From: Vairimorpha ceranae
Lineage: Eukaryota; Microsporidia; Nosematidae
Length of the DNA stretch: 34,922 nt
Direction: 5' to 3'
Assembly (NCBI RefSeq): GCF_000988165.1
Contig: NW_020169341.1
Span: forward strand, 1-34,922
The position numbers and the translations under genes were made by a program. The notes under the pieces are model-generated. The model saw nothing but the letters and a program-made list of their open reading frames with translations, was not told the origin of the DNA and did not search any database. How positions within the stretch are numbered: the stretch's first letter is position 1; every line of letters starts with the position of its first letter. This document shows, in pieces, positions 1 to 34,922 of the stretch.

Positions 1-115
1 GGCCATATCTACTGTAAAACACCGGAACTCGTCAGCTCTCCGAAGTTAAGCCAGTAAGAGCCTTGTTAGTACTGAGATGGGAAACTGCTCGGAAAAGCTA
101 GGTGCCGTAGTTTTT
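1..115 (+). rRNA. 5S ribosomal RNA, 5' end cut by the window edge
   Basis: The sequence follows the eukaryotic 5S pattern. It opens at the conserved GGCCATATCTAC that lies just after the first half of helix I, continues through GAAGTTAAGCC and a TAAGAGCC-type block (loops B/C), then the GAGATGGGAAACTGCTC segment, and ends with AGGTGCCGTAGTTTTT. About six 5' bases of helix I lie outside the window. The run of five T at 111-115 fits an RNA polymerase III terminator. A 5S gene standing alone next to protein genes and transposons, away from visible 18S/28S sequence, fits dispersed 5S genes. Confidence 0.93.
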
Positions 116-19575: not shown

Positions 19576-20856
19576 TTACATGCGGAATACTATCTCATGT
19601 AACTCCAGACAACCCAATTTTTCTTTATGTACAATTTCCAGTTTTATATTGTTATCTGTTGTATCAACTAAGAATAGCTTTCCGTTGATCATTGCGAACA
19701 ATTGATCATCATCGGATATGTAAAGACACGCTTTAACACGGTGATCCCTACTAATCCTACGTTTTAACCCATACAGGAACCATGGATCATACAACTTCCT
19801 AGGAATATCAAATAGTTTTCCTTCATTTACTGCTATTACCATCTCTTTTTTCCTAACTTTATTAAGTTCCTCTTTGGCTAAAAGAGTAAAGAAGTTTTCA
19901 TTGATAGACTCAATTTCGAATGATTTGGATTCTGTTGTTAAGCACGACGTAATAACCGGTGCTGGTGAGAAAGGTACTTCCTCTGCATATTCTTCAAACC
20001 TAATGGTAGGTATTGGATAACATCGATAATAAGGCGAAGAACTTTCGTTATTTGAATTATTTGTACTTTCATTTGATGATGATTCATTTCTTCGTTGATG
20101 TCTTTTACGTCTGCGCAATCTTCGTTGTCTACGATTTCGGCGGTAAGCATTAGATTCATTCTGTTGGTTAGATAGTGCACAGCATGACTTACAATCTTTA
20201 TCGGGTTCTCTGACATAACTTGGTGTTCTTTCTGATGTGCAACACGGCGAAGCAATTTTGATTTGATCTTTTTTACCACAACACGGCGAAGCAATTTTGA
20301 TTTGATCTTTTTTGCCACAACACGGCGAAGCAATTTTGATTTGATCTTTTTTACCACAACATGATTCCACAACTGGCTTATCCTTTTTACCACAACATGA
20401 TTCCACGACTGGCTTATCTTTTTTACCACAACACGATTCCACGACTGGCTTATCTTTTTTACCACAACATGATTCCACAACTGGCTTATCTTTTTTACCA
20501 CAACACGACGTATTACTATCTGCACCCAATATTTTCGGTTTACACGGACAATCACCAACACACAAAGCATATTTACTAGTAATCCTATCTTTGATATACG
20601 GCACAAGCGTACCATTAGAGTACAAGACATACAAATCTTTATGATCTTCCCATCCATAAACATAAGCTTTCTCCACATCTTTTTCAGTAAGCAGATCTGT
20701 AAGTATCTTCAGGTTAGTAGAATTGGCCAATACACCTGTCCTATTCACAGCAGTACAAATCTCATAAGGATTCTGATCACATGTTCCTTCAGCAATAACA
20801 GCGGTAAATGATTTTACAATCTCTACTAAGAGTAAAAGCAAGCTAAGACGATTCAT
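19576..20856 (-). CDS. Secreted Cys-Cys-Gly-Lys repeat protein, family not recognised
   Basis: A 426-residue protein. Residues 1-22 form a signal peptide (MNRLSLLLLLVEIVKSF then small residues). A domain with N-glycosylation motifs follows. An array at 118-206 has four 12-residue units CCGKKDKPVVES and three 13-residue units CCGKKDQIKIASP. Next come a further Cys-rich stretch, a strongly basic block (about 239-256) and a Ser/Asn-rich acidic-polar run. A C-terminal domain (about 290-426) contains DPWFLYGLKRRISRDH and ends in ELHEIVFRM. The two halves each contain a strand set like DxLYxLxNGxLVP / DQLFAMINGKLFLV, so they may be related domains. A spore wall, polar tube or host-facing role is plausible but unproven. 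The start is preceded by CACCT, a weak form of the usual motif. The stop overlaps TAAATAAA. Confidence 0.85.
   Translation of the reverse strand: MNRLSLLLLLVEIVKSFTAVIAEGTCDQNPYEICTAVNRTGVLANSTNLKILTDLLTEKDVEKAYVYGWEDHKDLYVLYSNGTLVPYIKDRITSKYALCVGDCPCKPKILGADSNTSCCGKKDKPVVESCCGKKDKPVVESCCGKKDKPVVESCCGKKDKPVVESCCGKKDQIKIASPCCGKKDQIKIASPCCGKKDQIKIASPCCTSERTPSYVREPDKDCKSCCALSNQQNESNAYRRNRRQRRLRRRKRHQRRNESSSNESTNNSNNESSSPYYRCYPIPTIRFEEYAEEVPFSPAPVITSCLTTESKSFEIESINENFFTLLAKEELNKVRKKEMVIAVNEGKLFDIPRKLYDPWFLYGLKRRISRDHRVKACLYISDDDQLFAMINGKLFLVDTTDNNIKLEIVHKEKLGCLELHEIVFRM
20239..20505 (-). repeat. Coding tandem repeats: 4 x 36 bp then 3 x 39 bp
   Basis: The array encodes CCGKKDKPVVES four times and CCGKKDQIKIASP three times. 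Units share the first 18 bases (encoding CCGKKD) across both types and are almost identical within a type, with a few silent changes. This suggests recent expansion from one ancestral unit. Confidence 0.95.
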
Positions 20857-26185: not shown

Positions 26186-26752
26186 TCAATATATATAAAA
26201 AGTTTAAAACTGACCATTTATTTAATTTTTTATATTTATAAAAAATTTAAACCTAAAAAATATTTTATTTAAAAATTAAATTTGTTATGAGTTTTTATGT
26301 TATCAAAATATGACTTTAACGTGGGTAAATTTCTGCCTAAGATTCTCTTCCCTTCTAGGTTCCTCAATTTTCAGACCTGCTCCTCGTCTGAACTCCATCG
26401 AAACACTTTCAAGAGTTCTCTTTAGAGTGATTGATTGAAAAGATTTAAACCTAAACAGTTATTTATTTTAAAACATTTATATAAAAATTAAAAAAATTGT
26501 TTTTATTAAGAAAAAGTAACATTATTGAAAAGCTTAATATTTTATCACAGCACAATATTTTTTGCTTTTACTATAGTTTTATTTAATTATTCAAATCGTA
26601 AAAAATGTGATTTTGCAAATTTTAATTTATCAAAATGAGCTATTTTGTGTTTAAAAACAATACATACGAGCCCAAAGATGTAACATACATTTTAAAAGCA
26701 AAAAAACTATAAATGTATTTGTAGTAAGTTTTAACGAAATAGTGTAAGCTAG
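26186..26752 (+). mobile_element. Helitron-like element D with an interior insert
   Basis: The 5' end tcaatatatataaaaagttt matches other family members. The 3' end has a worn hairpin region (agttttaacgaaat) and gtgtaagCTAG at 26749-26752. It is longer (567 bp) than A, B, C and E because of a GC-richer interior segment. The 5' family motif appears to recur inside at about 26440-26480, so nesting is possible. The last ~78 bases also belong to the 1.05-kb duplicated segment. Confidence 0.6.
26311..26436 (-). other. GC-richer, open-frame segment inside Helitron-like element D
   Basis: About 43% G+C by eye against roughly 20% around it. It is open on the minus strand throughout, reading TLKRTLESVSMEFRRGAGLK and onward to KFTHVKVI. 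Helitrons are known to capture gene pieces, and this has the look of one. The parent gene was not recognised. Confidence 0.4.
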
Positions 26753-27727
26753 TCATTAATATAAAATTTTAAAAGGCGGGAGATTTTTTCGAAAAAAAAA
26801 AGAAAAGATGGTAACTGGGCGAAAGAACAAGCAGGAAAATGAATCTTAAATTTTTTTAAAATACGTATAGTATCTGCAATGACATAACAAATAAAATATA
26901 AATAATTTTTATTTTTCCTCCTTTTTTCAATAAGTTAAAAATATACTATTTTACCCATATATGTCATCAAAAAGGAGAATTTATATTTTATCAATGTGTT
27001 CAGTATTACTAACAGTTTTTATATTTATACTTCTCAGATACACTAGCATTTTGGGGTCGTATTTTAATGCATTTCATAAGATATCTCTTAAAGATACTGT
27101 ATTAGGAAAATTTGATACTGATATTGCATTTAATGAATACTCAAAAGCAATTCAAACACCCGAATTTACTAAAGAAGAATTTGTTTTTATGGCTAAATCT
27201 TATTATTGTATTTCTAAAATACCTAGAAAAGTTTTGGTAAATTATTTTTTAAATGTCTATAATGAATTCCTTTTAAATTCATCGATAGTTAAATCTCCTG
27301 AGAAAGTCAAATTTCTTATGCCCATTTTGACTGAAACTTGGCAAGTAGCTTTTAATTTTATTTTTTCCAATTTTATTGCTAAAATCTATGCCAATTTTGT
27401 CACAAATATAATGAACAAGTTTAACACGCCTAGAAATAGCAACGATTTACTTATGATTAAATTATTGCAAAAATATATTGGTACTTTAGATACAAGTTTT
27501 AACAGTCTTTTAGAAGATGATTTAAAAAGCAAATTAACTGAAAGGAAACTAAAAAAGGAATCATTAATGTTATCTTACATTGAAGAGACACTAATTGAGA
27601 TAATTCCTAAAAGCAAAGAGTTTAAATAAAGATGTTAAACATTAATTTATTTCTAACCCTTTAGTACATTAATTTGGCTTCGAGTTTGCTTTTTTATTGT
27701 GTATTTAGTATTAAAATTTGTCATCAT
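26675..27727 (+). repeat. Segmental duplication, copy 1 (gene intact)
   Basis: It is homologous to 29307-30361 over about 1.05 kb. The left breakpoint lies inside a Helitron 3' terminal region and the right breakpoint just before the 5' end of the next Helitron-like element. Flanks and the gene ends are nearly identical between copies; the middle of the gene differs strongly. Confidence 0.9.
26961..27629 (+). CDS. Membrane-anchored 222-aa protein, lineage-specific, duplicated
   Basis: Not recognised. Residues 8-26 form one hydrophobic segment (YILSMCSVLLTVFIFILL), which would be a signal anchor or uncleaved signal peptide. The rest is a mostly helical, Lys-rich soluble domain with FTKEEFVFMAKSYYCISKIP and a C-terminal helix. 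TTTTACCC lies 4 bases before the ATG. The stop is embedded in AAATAAAG. A second, frameshifted copy lies 2.63 kb downstream. The position between Helitron ends suggests that this segment was moved or copied with those elements. A role in export to the surface or endomembrane is possible only by inference from the anchor. Confidence 0.75.
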   Translation: MSSKRRIYILSMCSVLLTVFIFILLRYTSILGSYFNAFHKISLKDTVLGKFDTDIAFNEYSKAIQTPEFTKEEFVFMAKSYYCISKIPRKVLVNYFLNVYNEFLLNSSIVKSPEKVKFLMPILTETWQVAFNFIFSNFIAKIYANFVTNIMNKFNTPRNSNDLLMIKLLQKYIGTLDTSFNSLLEDDLKSKLTERKLKKESLMLSYIEETLIEIIPKSKEFK

Positions 27728-27734
27728 CTATCTA

Positions 27735-28057
27735 TCTACTATATTATAAAAAGATAAGAAAAAATTTTCTTTTGATTTTTAGCCTTTCTTTTTGAAATTT
27801 TATGAATACTTTTTTATTAGCTAACACTATGGTAAAGCTATAATGTTCGCACAAAACATTATTACGCTGTATTCTTGTAAGTTGTATTTTTAATCAAACT
27901 GTTGAGAATATAGACATTGTAGAATTTAATTCATAGAAAAATATAGTAAAATTTCAAATTTATTACAACGACATACTATGCATTTGAAACAAAAAAATCA
28001 TAAGCAAGCCAACATCAAATCCAGATTTCTGTTTTCGGAACGGGTTGCTTTAGCTAG
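27735..28057 (+). mobile_element. Helitron-like element D2 (first of four in a row)
   Basis: It begins tctactatattataaaaaga and ends with gttttcggaac-type pairing then gctttagCTAG at 28054-28057. The 5' end is a variant of the family start, and the interior differs from element A, so it may be a separate subfamily. Confidence 0.55.
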
Positions 28058-28406
28058 TCTTCTATATGTATAAAAAGTTTGAATCTAAACATTTTTTTAT
28101 TTTTTAACCCTTCTTTTTTAAAAATTTGTAAAATTATTTGTATTTTTTATTAAGAATGAGTAGCATAAGTGTTAGGTTTATTTCTCTAAGCATGTAACGT
28201 TGTTTATGTGCATTTTTCCTTTCTTTTATTTAGTTAAATTAGTCTATACAAGGTGTCTACAGCAAATTTTAATTTATGATAAAAAGGGACAACCTGCAAT
28301 TAAAAATAATAAAATAAGTACATACATAAATGCCCAACATACAAATAAAAATAAAGAACATACTTTATATTTATGATCCCGTTTTAAACCGGATAGCGCA
28401 AGCTAG
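28058..28406 (+). mobile_element. Helitron-like element E
   Basis: It starts tcttctatatgtataaaaag immediately after the CTAG of D2. It ends with hairpin cccgttttaaaccgg (28378-28392), a 10-base spacer, then CTAG at 28403-28406. It is a 349-bp sister of element A (348 bp) with long shared interior words such as acaaggtgtctac(t)agcaaat and aataagtacatacataaa. Confidence 0.75.
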
Positions 28407-28927
28407 TCTATATGTATAAAAAGTTTAAATCGGAACATTTTTTTATTTTTATCCCTTTTTTAGTTTAATTGTAATTTCTGTTTAGATCTTTTATTTGAAG
28501 ACAGTAAAATATAACCGAAAATTATTATAGAATTTATACTATATGGACGTTGTCGGAGGTAGTTAAAAACATCTTTATTGGTAAAAAAAAATTTTAATAT
28601 TTATTAGAGATTAATAAACTGTGAAGTTTTGATGTATCAAGGCCAGAATACCTAAAGTACTAATCACAACCGTTCATACTAAAGTTGTGTTGTTTCACTA
28701 AACCGGTCTTCTTTTCAATTGGTTATATTTCTATTCCAACAGACGTTACAAATTTTTTTTTATTAGTTTTAATTTTTTCAATTATTTTAATTTCCAAATA
28801 TAATTTTAATATTTATGATTTTGCAATTTAAACCGTGCAAACAAGCCCAAAGGCGTATCATACATGAACAAAGAAAGAACACACACCGTGTTTGTAACCT
28901 CGTTTTAAACGGTATAGCATAAGCTTG
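28407..28927 (+). mobile_element. Helitron-like element F with divergent interior
   Basis: It starts TCTATATGTATAAAAAG directly after CTAG of E and ends tcgttttaaacggtatagca then taagCTTG at 28924-28927. The interior (about 28550-28740) is GC-richer and unlike A or E, so it may hold captured DNA. Confidence 0.65.
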
Positions 28928-29385
28928 TCAATATAAATAGAAGGTTTGAATTTTAATATTTATTAATCTTTTAACCTTTTTTTTAAAAAATTTGTAAAAT
29001 TTTTTTATTTTTAGTAAAAAAAAAATTTATTATATCTGTTTGGATAAAACATAGGGTTATTTAATAATTATTATTTATATAACAGATATGTAAAAGCCAC
29101 CAACCCAATACTACTGATTGGCATGTCTACATCTTTACTGTCCTACAGTATCTTTTATCATATTAATCACGGCACAATATCTTTGTGCATTTTTTTTATT
29201 TTATTCGGTTATTTTAATTTTAAATTGTGTATTATTGGAGACTTCATAAAATTTAAAAAAACAAATTTTAAATTATTAATGTTAATTTATTTTAAAATTT
29301 GCTTTTAAGATGTAACATACATTTTAAAAGCAAAAAAACTATAAATGTATTTGTAGTAAGTTTTGAACGAAATGGTGTAAGCTAG
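28928..29385 (+). mobile_element. Helitron-like element G, carrying repeat R3
   Basis: It starts TCAATATAAATAGAAGG directly after CTTG of F and continues into ggtttgaatt. It is interrupted by hairpin repeat R3 and ends gtgtaagCTAG at 29382-29385. Its last ~79 bases belong to copy 2 of the 1.05-kb duplication. Confidence 0.6.
29040..29150 (+). repeat. Dispersed ~110-bp hairpin repeat, copy R3
   Basis: It is aligned with R1 and R2 through ggataaaacat, taattattatttatataaca, cccaatact, ctgattg and catgtctacatctttactgt, then cctacagta. The second hairpin keeps all but the outermost pair; the first keeps most pairs through wobbles. It sits inside Helitron-like element G, showing that the repeat itself is mobile or was carried. 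Confidence 0.7.
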
Positions 29386-30361
29386 TCATTAATATAAAAT
29401 TTTAAAAGGCGGGCGATTTTTTCGAAAAAATAAAAGAAAAGAGGGTAACTGGGGTGGAAGAACAAGCAGGAAAATAAACCTTTAATTTTTTTAAAATACG
29501 TATAGTATCTGCAATGACATGACAAATAAAATATAAATAATTTTAATTTTTTCTCCTTTTTTCAATAAGTTAAAAGTATACTTTTTTACCCATATATGTC
29601 ATCAAAAAAGGGATTTTATATTTTATCAATGTGTTCAGTATTACTAACAGTTTTTATATTTATACTTCTCAGATACACTAGCATTTTGGGGTCGTATTTT
29701 AATGCATTTCATAAGATATCTCTTAAAGATACTGTATTAGGAAAATTTGATACTGATATTGCATTTAATGAATACTCAAAAGCGACTCAAACACCCAAAT
29801 TTACTAAAGAAGAATTCGTTTTTATGGCTAAATCTTATTATTGTATTTCTAAAATACCTAAAAAAGTTTTGGTAAATTATTTTTTAAATGTCTATTCCGA
29901 ACCATTTTTTAAAATATCATTATTTGGTTCCCCTGAAAAAGCCAAGGTTTATTTTTACCTATTCTTAAGGTATTGTATGAAAATTCAGATCATATTTTTT
30001 TCAATTGTTGCGCTAAAGTAATGTACGTACATAATGTTGAAGAGATTATGGAACAGTTTAATGTACTTGAAATGCTGGATGAACCTAAAGTTGAATTATT
30101 ACAAAAAACAATTGGTACTTTAAATACAAGTTTTAACAGTCTTTTAGAAGATGATTTAAAAAGCAAATTAACTGAAAAAAAACTTAAAAGAGGATCATTA
30201 ATGCTATCATATATTGAAAAAGTGCTAATTGAGATAATTCTTAAAAGCGAATAATTAAAATAAAGATGTTAAACTTTAATTTATTTCTAACTCTTTAAGA
30301 CACAAACTTGGCTGCAAGCTTGCTTTTTTATTATGTATTTAGTATTTACACTTGCCATCAT
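29307..30361 (+). repeat. Segmental duplication, copy 2 (gene frameshifted)
   Basis: It matches 26675-27727 from the Helitron 3' terminal region through the gene and its 3' flank, and ends immediately before a Helitron 5' terminus at 30362. Confidence 0.9.
29596..30254 (+). pseudogene. Frameshifted paralogue of the 222-aa membrane-anchored protein
   Basis: The first 93 codons are nearly identical to the intact copy at 26961, including the membrane anchor. A single frame change around 29945-29960 (a T-rich run) moves the reading into another frame. That frame then recovers the conserved C-terminus (IGTLNTSFNSLLEDDLKSKL and onward) and ends at a stop at 30252-30254. The central third differs strongly from copy 1, although both sides match closely. 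As read, it would give a truncated 141-residue product. A sequencing error or programmed shift cannot be excluded. Confidence 0.8.
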
Positions 30362-30413
30362 TCAATATATATAAAAAGTTTGAATCTAAATACACTTTTT
30401 TACCCTTCTTTTA
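30362..30413 (+). promoter_or_regulatory. Helitron 5' terminus forming the PSF2 leader and promoter motif
   Basis: Positions 30362-30391 read tcaatatatataaaaagttt then gaatctaaat, the 5' start of the Helitron-like family. They run on through ttttttacccttcttttaATG into PSF2. In full elements the same position reads tttttaacccttctttttt. The element's own CCC-containing sequence therefore sits as the gene's start-proximal motif. No Helitron 3' end follows. Confidence 0.7.
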
Positions 30414-30938
30414 ATGCTGACACCCCAGGAATTAAAATTTATCACATTAGAAGAATTAATAGAAATCGAACCCTGTTCAAATATCAATACATTATCACTG
30501 ATACATAATACATACACAAATATAAAGCCTCTCTCAATTATTAAGATACCATTGTACATAGCATTAGAACTTAAAAAAGGGAATTTGGCTTACTTAAGAA
30601 TACCAGCTTGTTACACTTACCAGTATTTAAATAACTTGATAGATGAAGAGATAAATAATCAGCATGAGTATATTTCAATACCTAAGAATATATTTTGTAC
30701 CGGTAAACTTGTGATAAGAGAAAGTTATAATAGTGAACGGAAAGAGGAGTGCATTGGATTAATTGACAAATTAAAAGAAATAAGATTTAAGAAGACACTG
30801 ACAGGTCTTAGTAAAATGGAGGGTAGAGCACTAACACTTAATAATCTAACTATGTTTGAATGGTATGAAATACGTGAAATATTAATTAAGCCCATGGAAG
30901 AAAGAAGGAAGATTATTGAGAAATATTCTAAAGTGTAA
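30414..30938 (+). CDS. PSF2: GINS complex subunit Psf2
   Basis: A 174-residue protein starting MLTPQELKFITLEELIEIEP, the Psf2 N-terminus (TPxElEFiAeeelIeIiP). It continues with IKIPLYIALELKKGNLAYLR then IP, YLNNLIDEEIN, and the C-terminal LTGLSKMEGRALTLNNLTMFEW, ending near REILIKPME. The length is near the family norm (about 185-215). Psf2 is one of four GINS subunits; GINS joins Cdc45 and Mcm2-7 in the replicative helicase. Its leader is a Helitron 5' end, a recent-looking junction. The gene is followed at once by a minisatellite and then by a Cdt1-like gene on the same strand. Confidence 0.88.
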   Translation: MLTPQELKFITLEELIEIEPCSNINTLSLIHNTYTNIKPLSIIKIPLYIALELKKGNLAYLRIPACYTYQYLNNLIDEEINNQHEYISIPKNIFCTGKLVIRESYNSERKEECIGLIDKLKEIRFKKTLTGLSKMEGRALTLNNLTMFEWYEIREILIKPMEERRKIIEKYSKV

Positions 30939-30980
30939 GGGACATGTTTAAGCTTTTGAGATTTATCGGATTGGATATCT

Positions 30981-31165
30981 TTTTATTCTATTTATATATT
31001 TTTATTGTTATTCTTTTATTTTTAGTTATATATTCTTATTATTATTCTTTTATTCTAGTTATATATTCTTATTATTATTCTTTTATTCTATTTATATATT
31101 CTTATTGTTATTCTTTTATTTTTAGTTATATATTCCTATTGTTATTCTTTTATTCTATAAATTAA
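30981..31165 (+). repeat. ~33-34 bp minisatellite, about 5.3 units
   Basis: Units read ttttattctagttatatatt followed by cttattattattc, with two alternating variants (ttctattt and tttttagt). The array begins about 40 bases after the PSF2 stop. An open frame across it is a by-product of the repeat period. Confidence 0.92.
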
Positions 31166-31478
31166 TTCTTATTTTTTATTTATATTAGCAATTTAAAGGT
31201 TACTTGCATTTTTTTAGAGAAGTTTTTTACCGAAGGCAATTAACAGCATTTTTATAAAACTCACTAATTTCTCTCTTCTTTACAGTAAATTATAAAATAG
31301 TACAAGATTGGATGTATGCTTCAATTCGGCCTTTAATTATTCTACAAACTAAAAATATTATTTACAATTTAGTTATTTACTAAACTTTTTTAAATAAATA
31401 ATATGCTTTTTTTCTTTATTCTGATCTTTTTTCCAAAATATTCTCCTTTAACTTTTTTTTCATTTATGCACCATAAAA
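31166..31478. other. Upstream region of the Cdt1-like gene
   Basis: AT-rich, no gene seen. A CACC motif lies six bases before the ATG at 31479. Confidence 0.5.
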
Positions 31479-32501
31479 ATGAAAGAAAATATTTATAAAT
31501 TTCTTAAAAATAAAAGAAAAGCAAGTTTAATTAAAGAAAGTGATATGAGTACAGAAATAACAGTAAAAGAGATTAAAATGAGTAATAATACAATACAAAG
31601 TGATAAATTAATAATCAATAATATACATAGTGATGAATTATCACTTAGAGAAAGGGTTTTATCTTTTACTCCTGTTTCATCTACATCTCTTTACTCTACA
31701 GAAACTAATTACCACTGTTTACTTCCTAAAAAATATTTAAAACTTACTAAAATATTTAGAGTAATGATGACAATACAGAAATATAACACTAATAGAGGCT
31801 TATCTAATATTTTTATAAAATGTAAAAAGTGTATAGAAGATGTTTTAAAAATAAGAGTAAATATTAGTGATATTGAAAAAATAAGGTTTTTGATACCAGA
31901 AAAAATAACAGTAAAAATAATTGAACTTGAAGGAGAGAAAACTTTTACTTATAAATTATTGTGTACACCAGAAGAATTCAATAAAATAGTTTGGGATTAT
32001 TATAAATTAAAAAATAAAAAAGAAGAGTGTAGAGTGAATGAAGATGTGGAAGATGTAGAAAGATTAGAAATATTAAAAGAAGATGACGTAAAAATATTAG
32101 CATTAGAAAGGATTACTAAGCAAAAAGAAGGATACAAAATAAAAGAAAATTTGGGACCAGAAAAGATTACTGAACAAAAAGAAAATGTAAATAATAAATT
32201 AGAAGTAGAAATACAAACTAAAAAAAAATATTTTAGTATCTTAGACCGAATAAGAGAGAAAGAAAGATTAAGAAAGGAGTCATTTATAAAAAAGGCTAAG
32301 GATGAAGATAATTCTGTATTTTTAAGGAAACTAGATTTGTATTTAAAAAAGGATGACAAAAAATGTGTAAAGCTTAAAGAACTAATAAAAGTATTTAATT
32401 TATACGATGGTGACAGGTACATAAGAAAAGTGGTAGAACAAGAAAAAGCGTATGATATTAAAGAAATATTTGGAGATGAATATTTAATTAAATTAATTTA
32501 A
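31479..32501 (+). CDS. Cdt1-like replication licensing factor
   Basis: A 340-residue protein. Residues about 80-175 follow the Cdt1 middle winged-helix domain (the one that binds geminin in animals): LPKKYLKLTKIFRVMMTIQK, then a NTNRGLSNIFIKCKKCIEDV segment, VNISDIEKIRFLIPE and a strand pair ITVKIIE/FTYKLL. After a charged linker, residues about 245-340 resemble the C-terminal winged helix that contacts Mcm2-7: KKYFSILDRIREKERLRKES, LRKLDLYLKK, then a helix-turn-helix end IFGDEYLIKLI. Cdt1 loads Mcm2-7 with ORC and Cdc6. The disordered N-terminus of larger homologues is short. The neighbouring Psf2 gene also serves replication initiation. Both domains match only loosely by eye, so this is a moderate-confidence call. 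Confidence 0.6.
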   Translation: MKENIYKFLKNKRKASLIKESDMSTEITVKEIKMSNNTIQSDKLIINNIHSDELSLRERVLSFTPVSSTSLYSTETNYHCLLPKKYLKLTKIFRVMMTIQKYNTNRGLSNIFIKCKKCIEDVLKIRVNISDIEKIRFLIPEKITVKIIELEGEKTFTYKLLCTPEEFNKIVWDYYKLKNKKEECRVNEDVEDVERLEILKEDDVKILALERITKQKEGYKIKENLGPEKITEQKENVNNKLEVEIQTKKKYFSILDRIREKERLRKESFIKKAKDEDNSVFLRKLDLYLKKDDKKCVKLKELIKVFNLYDGDRYIRKVVEQEKAYDIKEIFGDEYLIKLI

Positions 32502-33696
32502 TATTTTTTATTTCTGAATGCAACTTGTTTTATTAATTTGTTAATATATTATTGTGTTATTATTTTCAATGTATTTTTTCTTATTATTCGTTATCTTTAT
32601 TGCCATACATTGTCAATATATTAAAATATTTATTGTCAAATAAACAATATTTGCTAGTGTAAGATGAAAATTTTTTGATTGGTTCAAGGAAAAAAGGATA
32701 AGCCGCTTGTAAATCAAAAAAACAAAAGAAACGATTCTCAGACAATGTAAATAAAAGGCTTGGTATGATATGGTTAAAATTTAAATTTGACAAAAGCAAG
32801 CATCCTTGAGACAAATGGTAAAAGAAATATAAACATCGAGTGTAGTACAACCACTAGAACAGCCAATATATAAGTAAAAGATGAAACCTTACATAGTTAT
32901 GACAAAGGCATATCACTATTTAAAACAATTTTTATAGATTGTTTTAAATAAAAATTTATAAAAAAAAACAAATTATATAAATTATACTCTATATTGTGGA
33001 CAAGGCAACTATTATACACACGATTACAATAGAAGAAAAAGAGCTACAATAAAACAAGTCAAACTATATATATCGTAAAACCGCAATATTTGACGTTTTA
33101 TTGGCTTTTGCGTTCAAAGCTTATATTTAATCTTAAGTCTATAAACGTTCACTTAAAATTATTGTTTGTAATTTTTTGTCTTTCTAATATTTTACTTTTT
33201 TTCTGCTCTTTAATTTTATTCTTGTAAGAAGTATTTTGAAAAACAAGTGATGAAAAAAGAGACCAAACAGTTCTATAAACTTTTTAATAGTAGATTATAA
33301 TTTTAAATTAGCTCTAGTTATGTAATTTTGTAATAAAAAAATTATTTTTTATATTTTTTTGAAAATATTGCACTAAAAAAAAAGACAATTTTTATAAGTA
33401 AGTATACAATCCCATATTAACAAAAAAAATTTATACAAATTAACTTTCAACCATTTTAATTTTAATGTGACATTAATGTAAACAAAACATAAATAATTTG
33501 GCCTAAAAGAGGGACGTGATAAATTTAGATAAAACTAAAATAAATCATATTTATTCTATCATACTTATTGAACAATATTTCAAATGTGGATCTGTCAGTT
33601 AGATAAGAATTCAACAAAACTCACTAAACATAATTGAATAAATCTTTTTTTATATTAGCTAAAAAATAGAATTTTGTAACTATAAAATTTTTATTA
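32502..33696. other. AT-rich region between the Cdt1-like gene and a Merlin element
   Basis: No gene, RNA signature or member of the window's repeat families was recognised in about 1.2 kb. An 88-codon minus-strand frame (32584-32850) lacks a start motif and is not considered real. Confidence 0.5.
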
Positions 33697-33987
33697 GGAC
33701 TTAATCGGGCAGACTGGTATTTTTTGATATTTCCAAAATTTGAAATTTTTTAACTCCTAAAATGAAAACTCAAAGAAGAAGAGGAGTACCAAAAATTAGC
33801 AAATGAGATCAATAACCATTATAACAATCGAAAATGTTATAAATGAGGTTCAGATACACGTAAACTGAAGAAAAAGATTAGGATTGTCTGTTATTTTCCT
33901 GCATGTAAGTGTAAGTTCACTAGCTATAAAGAAACAATTTTTGAAAACACGTCACTTCCTATTATTACTTTAATAAAAGTAATATAT

Positions 33988-34587
33988 ATGTGGATCGAGA
34001 ATGTTCCTTGCGATCTTATCGCCAGAATTGCAGGAATTCATAGATCTTCGGTCTTTGAAATCTGCGATAAGCTACGATCACTAGGTGGATTAGACTTATA
34101 TTTAAATAAGTTTGATAGAATTGGTGGAAATAATGCGATAGTTGAAATTGACGAAAGTAAATTCGGCAGGAGAAAATACAACAGAGGCCACAGAGTAGAA
34201 GGCGTTTGGGTTGTGGGCGCCGTCGAAAGAATTAACAAAAGAATCGTGCTAAGACACGTAGAAAAAAGAGACAGCCTTACTTTAACGACGTTTTGTAAAA
34301 AATACATTAAAAAAGAAACGACTATTTATAGTGATTGCTGGAAAGGCTATTCAAATCTTTCCAAGGAATTTTTTAAACATCAAACTGTAAACCACTCAAA
34401 ACATTTTGTTAACAGGCAAACTAACACGCATACCAATACTATAGAAGGTAACTGGAGTGGAATAAAAAGAACAATTCCAATAAGAAGCAGAACATGGAAA
34501 TTAATTGACATATACTTATTAAGATTTATGTTAAAAAGAAACGAAGGAAGCAACAGTCTAGAGGTCTTATTAAAATTATTTTATTAA
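33988..34587 (+). CDS. Merlin/IS1595-type DDE transposase, 5' part disrupted
   Basis: The open 199 codons contain the helix-turn-helix-like segment (CDLIARIAGIHRSSVFEI) and the complete catalytic set: Asp in VEIDESKFGRRKYNRGHRVE, Asp in IYSDCWKGYSN, and Glu in HTNTIEGNWSGIKR, with the VNHSKHFVNR block between. The same frame continues upstream of 33988 for about 70 more codons and shows the zinc-ribbon region (CYFPACKCKF and a KCYK block), interrupted by one TGA at 33844-33846. No in-frame ATG is found before it; an ATG at 33762 is in another frame. The full transposase was therefore probably about 275 residues and this copy has lost its N-terminus to one stop plus a frame change. Confidence 0.82.
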   Translation: MWIENVPCDLIARIAGIHRSSVFEICDKLRSLGGLDLYLNKFDRIGGNNAIVEIDESKFGRRKYNRGHRVEGVWVVGAVERINKRIVLRHVEKRDSLTLTTFCKKYIKKETTIYSDCWKGYSNLSKEFFKHQTVNHSKHFVNRQTNTHTNTIEGNWSGIKRTIPIRSRTWKLIDIYLLRFMLKRNEGSNSLEVLLKLFY

Positions 34588-34758: not shown

Positions 34759-34922
34759 GGGGTTAAAAAATTTCAAACTTTGGAAATATCAAAAAATACC
34801 GAACAGGCCGACTTTAACCAATTAAACTAAAAAGAACTATATTACACCATTAGCTATAGTTATTTTAAAAAACTTATAGAAAATACTAAATAAGTTTTTA
34901 TTTATTAACTTTTTCTAAGAAC

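Follow-up and report, generated by a model that had tools for sequence, protein, structure and literature searches.

Animals and plants offer well-known examples of promoters that derive from transposons. In Caenorhabditis, the repeated transposon end CERP2/CELE2 occurs at many gene promoters, and its description reports demonstrated promoter activity and a regulator, HIM-17 (PMC9757741). For the bat Helitron Helraiser, the report describes a 5′ end (LTS) that is essential and a 3′ end that is dispensable, joining of the TC to an A, insertions with lost 3′ parts, and enrichment at promoters (PMC4778049). On the microsporidian side, three reports document the CCC start motif in N. ceranae, E. 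cuniculi, and T. hominis (PMC2685015, PMC2803860, PMC3486916), with a TATA element near −27 accompanying CCC in N. ceranae genes (PMC2685015) and 5′ UTRs shorter than 7 nt for those E. cuniculi genes that were mapped by RACE (PMC2803860). N. apis is reported to be without Helitrons (PMC5012567). Here, we describe a microsporidian locus at which these two subjects meet, i.e., a gene leader that carries the CCC start motif and aligns with the 5′ end of a Helitron. In our literature search, which covered titles and the openings of abstracts outside subscription papers and preprints, we found no paper describing a microsporidian promoter of Helitron origin.

The window, i.e., the whole 34,922-nt stretch of DNA that was analyzed, corresponds to contig C58 in an assembly of 4.56 Mb and 116 contigs, and the span of interest (30362-30938) consists of the gene for the GINS subunit PSF2 and its leader. 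Features of the locus are collected in Table 1. Protein alignment placed the first Met of PSF2 at that of all three homologues found, which share 99% (P0001), 69% (Vairimorpha necatrix), and 65% identity with it; the identity to the V. necatrix protein points to a microsporidian source near the Vairimorpha/Nosema group. The PSF2 protein found no relative's DNA in the viral contig collection, an alignment-based search of the genome and viral contig collections found none either, and the core pattern described below had 0 matches in the viral contigs. An AT-rich tandem repeat with a unit of ~33 to 34 nt lies directly 3′ of PSF2 (30976-31175), and a CDT1-like ORF (31479-32501; E 7.5e-7) adjoins the gene on the same strand, making two neighboring replication genes. 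Elsewhere in the window, an ORF on the minus strand (19576-20856) without Pfam match contains repeats at 36- and 39-nt spacing (20240-20523), and an ISXO2/IS1595-like transposase ORF (33988-34587) is located between inverted repeat arms at 33690-33757 and 34759-34826. This transposase is of the Merlin type.

Table 1. Coordinates of the PSF2 locus, the neighboring Helitron array, and the reversed short 5′ pieces (window positions unless a locus is named)
Feature	Position	Strand	Details
PSF2 (GINS subunit) CDS	30414-30938	+	174 aa; Pfam PSF2_N PF25005, E 1.3e-11
Helitron 5′ end = PSF2 leader	30362-30412	+	nhmmer 30.8 bits; profile positions 1-57, ~6 nt missing inside
5′ core TATATATAAAAAGTTTGAATCTAAA, TATA-like sequence inside	30366-30390	+	matches core pattern exactly
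T-tract + CCC start motif (TTTTTTACCCTTCTTTT)	30396-30412	+	first C at −11 from PSF2 ATG
Segment X, first copy	26675-27727	+	intact 222-aa ORF at 26961-27629
Segment X′, second copy	29307-30361	+	BLASTN 85.9% over 1064 columns to 26675-27727
Degenerate Helitron after X	27767-28057	+	profile positions 32-343, E 5e-9
Nearly complete Helitron, same tandem array	28061-28406	+	247 bits
Partial Helitrons between X and X′	28407-29385	+	profile matches 28407-28548, 28740-28925, 28928-29012, 29155-29385
Reversed body-less pieces	L035:4618, L040:4982, L044:9677, L048:2587, L052:4996, L053:4839	reverse	29-75 bp upstream of starts; several in divergent intergenic regions

The Helitron profile was built from 56 distinct copies with both ends, taken from the window and 45 loci. 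The resulting consensus is 340 nt long, runs from TCAATATATATAAAAAGTTTGAATC... to ...CCCGTTTTAAACGGGATAGCGTAAGCTAG, and belongs to a non-autonomous element that shares with canonical non-autonomous Helitrons the 5′ TC, the 3′ hairpin (CCCGTTTTAAACGGG), the CTAG end, and the arrangement of many copies in tandem arrays. Allowing ≤3 mismatches, the core ATATATATAAAAAGTTTGAATCTNAA matched the assembly 121 times, at least 51 of the matches listed being exact copies, and the 3′ end pattern (hairpin and CTAG) matched 85 times; the backwards control of the core and the control of the 3′ pattern both gave 0. Positions 1 to 50 are the best conserved part of the element, with a mean identity of 0.93. The 5′ TC was found where expected in 20/24 first-in-array and 33/40 in-array copies, and an A precedes it in 13 of the 24 first-in-array copies. 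A Rep/helicase search with PF14214 was uninformative (0 matches, and no signal from the controls either), and the four matches to PF05970 (PIF1) had no linkage to the family.

The first-pass annotation had proposed that the bases upstream of PSF2 are the 5′ end of such a Helitron, and the profile search bears this out. The match has an E value of 1.2e-8 in 211 kb and of 6.1e-10 in a small set, and the best score in the reversed-sequence control was 7.7 bits (E 0.12) versus 30.8 bits for the leader. The homology extends through TTTTTTACCCTTCTTTT, a single base separates its end from the PSF2 ATG, and 'ttttttaccctt' is present in the leader. At the site of the start motif the family consensus is TTTTTTAACCCTTCTTTTTT, as the same annotation had read in other family members; the equivalent in PSF2 lies ~6 nt closer to the 5′ end. 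The exact pattern of core, CCCTTCTTTT, and an ATG within 14 bases occurs three times in the assembly, with a long ORF behind that of PSF2 only, the other two being ordinary Helitron copies whose ATG frames span 8 and 58 aa. Downstream of the leader neither a Helitron 3′ end nor a Helitron body was found, in keeping with the absence of the 3′ part that had been claimed for this site. The PSF2 leader is thus a fragment limited to positions 1 to 57 and not a complete element, and it differs from canonical Helitrons in running directly into a host start codon.

Upstream of the leader, the window contains two copies of a segment, X and X′, with Helitrons of the tandem array between them (Table 1). 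The gene of X′ is frameshifted, with ORFs of 141 and 77 aa (29596-30250) in place of the 222-aa ORF of X. Similarity between the two segments stops at 30361, one base before the Helitron TC of the PSF2 leader. At the equivalent point of the X flank sits the degenerate Helitron, which is longer than the PSF2 leader and whose first ~30 positions fall below profile detection but are alignable by eye in the junction alignment. A Helitron origin of the PSF2 leader is well supported. In the order of events that we infer, gene X would first have been situated among small non-autonomous Helitrons arranged in tandem. A rearrangement of this array would then have joined positions 1 to 57 of the Helitron behind an X copy to the ATG of PSF2. 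An unequal exchange within the array would be the simplest account, with the Helitron cut after position 57 beside PSF2; the cut may have preceded the exchange and may reflect either a truncated insertion or a deletion. Two origins had been proposed at the outset, recruitment of a transposon end as the gene's leader and capture of a promoter by the Helitron family. The former fits better, since the homology starts at the Helitron TC and a longer degenerate Helitron occupies the paralogous point beside X; the captured promoter is the less likely of the two. Our best explanation as a whole, which we consider reasonably probable, is that an array rearrangement fused a Helitron 5′ end to PSF2, which would have acquired its leader and core promoter in this way.

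Promoter use was considered against other ORFs. A CCC at −3 to −20 precedes 51 of the 79 ORFs of ≥150 aa, and 59/96 ORFs of ≥100 aa show one no farther than 22 bases from the ATG, most commonly at −6 to −8. The expectation that the start motif is correctly positioned in the leader was borne out: the PSF2 CCC at −11 is within this range, albeit off the −6 to −8 peak, and within the about 15 to 20 bases of the ATG that characterize the microsporidian motif. PSF2 shows the same arrangement as other microsporidian genes, with a T-tract and CCC no more than about 15 bases away from the ATG, but its motif belongs to a transposon end. The TATA-like sequence is at −44, i.e., 33 to 37 nt upstream of CCC. 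A TATA pattern 15 to 35 nt upstream of CCC was only weakly commoner in genes (12/59) than in a background stretch (9/59), so that a role of TATA draws no support from this genome's own counts. Only ~160 bases separate the end of the X′ gene from PSF2, and their non-Helitron part is mostly X flank, which places the PSF2 promoter in either the leader or the flank; the leader is the likelier location. The Helitron 5′ end already has the microsporidian core promoter layout of TATA-like run, T-tract, and CCC, and PSF2 could therefore be transcribed from Helitron DNA. PSF2 likely uses this end as its promoter; its transcripts are predicted to start near CCC and would then have a 5′ UTR of only a few bases. 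Most other copies carry the same Helitron sequence with no ORF behind it, and the core of the PSF2 leader is too short a stretch for its conservation to serve as proof of constraint.

The point at which Helitron homology ends is relevant to an alternative in which only the first ~31 to 36 bases of the leader are Helitron and the T-tract with CCC is native to PSF2. Such a hybrid would have arisen when a deletion joined two T-rich ACCC tracts of similar sequence; the Helitron would have given the upstream DNA and perhaps the TATA box, and the junction would have formed easily, since a T-tract with CCC is common before genes. The ~6-nt alignment gap located immediately 5′ of the tract and the absence of a significant match when the PSF2 stretch downstream of the core was searched alone against the whole Helitron profile (E 5) are both consistent with this origin. 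Nonetheless, we consider it unlikely, as CCCTTCTTTT is identical to the Helitron at 10/10 bases and the PSF2 tract, compared with Helitron positions 40 to 57, scored 21.8 bits, the top value among 91 gene upstreams, where the next scores were 11.6 and 5.9 bits.

Evidence bearing on the opposite direction of descent comes from Helitron copies near other genes. The first-pass annotation had proposed a search for further genes with this leader; the whole 57-nt leader was found before a long ORF only at PSF2, and shorter pieces, mostly reversed, precede several genes. We read 74 distinct copies from the window and 48 loci, to which the following counts apply; the loci were chosen for having the core, near-perfect ones first, from among about 100 of the 121 core matches, and several of their flanks are short, three having only 191 bases. 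A CCC part or a 3′ end is present in 64 of these copies, PSF2 included, and the remaining 10 have neither (body-less copies). Seven of the 10 lie ahead of an ORF start at a distance of ≤90 bp, six of them reversed (at 29, 53, 62, 71, 75, and 75 bp) and one forward (at 89 bp), versus 0/63 of the other Helitron-type copies (Fisher p 7e-8). Approximately 6.9% of intergenic bases are that close to a start, giving a binomial chance of 7e-7 for 7/10. The other three body-less copies (L044:4822, L051:4975, and L054:62) have no ORF start scored at ≤90 bp; L054, where the 191 bases read contain no ORF, was counted as not near. One copy with a CCC part (L056; C95:60550-60740) is 27 bp from an ATG that has CCC ahead of it on the opposite strand and is a likely start, but was left unscored, its ORF exiting the 191-base stretch after 37 codons; counting it as near gives p 6e-7. 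The genes next to the body-less pieces encode a PUA-domain protein, an unknown protein, a V-type ATPase subunit (presumably B), a synoviolin-like RING protein, an MCM, a MUS81-like ERCC4 protein, and a DnaJ protein. MCM genes gave eight matches genome-wide, and only that of C27 adjoins a core among the matches listed.

This distribution could mean that the promoter came first, a host element consisting of a TATA-like run and TTTGAATC having been taken up as the Helitron 5′ end, while PSF2 and other genes keep the original. Besides the proximity of body-less copies to starts, this would explain why these copies are kept over 26 to 45 nt with flanks devoid of Helitron likeness and why 4/10 have no Helitron TC. 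Yet 6 of the 10 start exactly at A|TC, which is the Helitron insertion junction, and in PSF2 the homology continues into Helitron positions 40 to 57. Furthermore, core scores in gene upstreams are bimodal (33 to 38 or ≤3 bits), as expected of copied pieces, although these upstreams had been chosen for near-perfect cores. We therefore favor the Helitron as the ancestral state and regard a captured host promoter as rather improbable. Chance likeness or an assembly artifact is very improbable: the genome is AT rich, the junction lies beside tandem repeats, and the draft assembly is in 116 contigs, but the reversed control stayed far below the score of the leader and the pattern controls gave 0.

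Other identities for the conserved core were rejected. A degenerate transcription factor motif fits poorly with the bimodal core scores. As to a Pol III or small-RNA element, none of the copies had a tRNA next to it in an ARAGORN search (one tRNA-Phe in 21 sources), and Rfam found nothing near them, its two matches in 10 sources being the tRNA-Phe and the 5S rRNA gene that occupies the left edge of the window (1-113) without its first bases. Two gene-free stretches searched with Rfam at E up to 1 gave 0 matches, and no RNA family was found near L044:4822 or L051:4975. The TATA-like run with GTTTGAATC slightly resembles a tRNA B box.

With descent from the Helitron as the preferred reading, the short pieces may be compared with the described systems. 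They share with Helraiser the loss of 3′ parts and the proximity to genes, whereas the body-less pieces here span only 26 to 45 nt and may have arisen by truncated insertion or by later deletion. Copies near genes may be short since selection would remove long insertions at such sites. The contrast in distance to starts is by itself no proof of function. As with CERP2/CELE2, a repeated transposon end is placed near several gene starts; the present case concerns sequence and position, in a microsporidian, and a Helitron end. Tentatively, Helitron 5′ ends might have seeded a set of promoters, with pieces of 26 to 57 nt placed at a fixed, close distance ahead of housekeeping genes under a possible common control, although we hold this wider proposal to be doubtful. 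Three of the piece-bearing genes function in DNA replication or repair, namely, PSF2, an MCM, and a MUS81-like nuclease.

If the proposed origin is true, PSF2 would be a sharp case of a core replication gene whose entire leader, start motif included, comes from a transposon end. The setting is a parasite genome that has undergone reduction and whose promoters are short enough for a transposon end to take the place of one completely. The several genes with the same 5′ end close upstream would provide a test set for exaptation of Helitron ends across a clade whose members gain and lose Helitrons.
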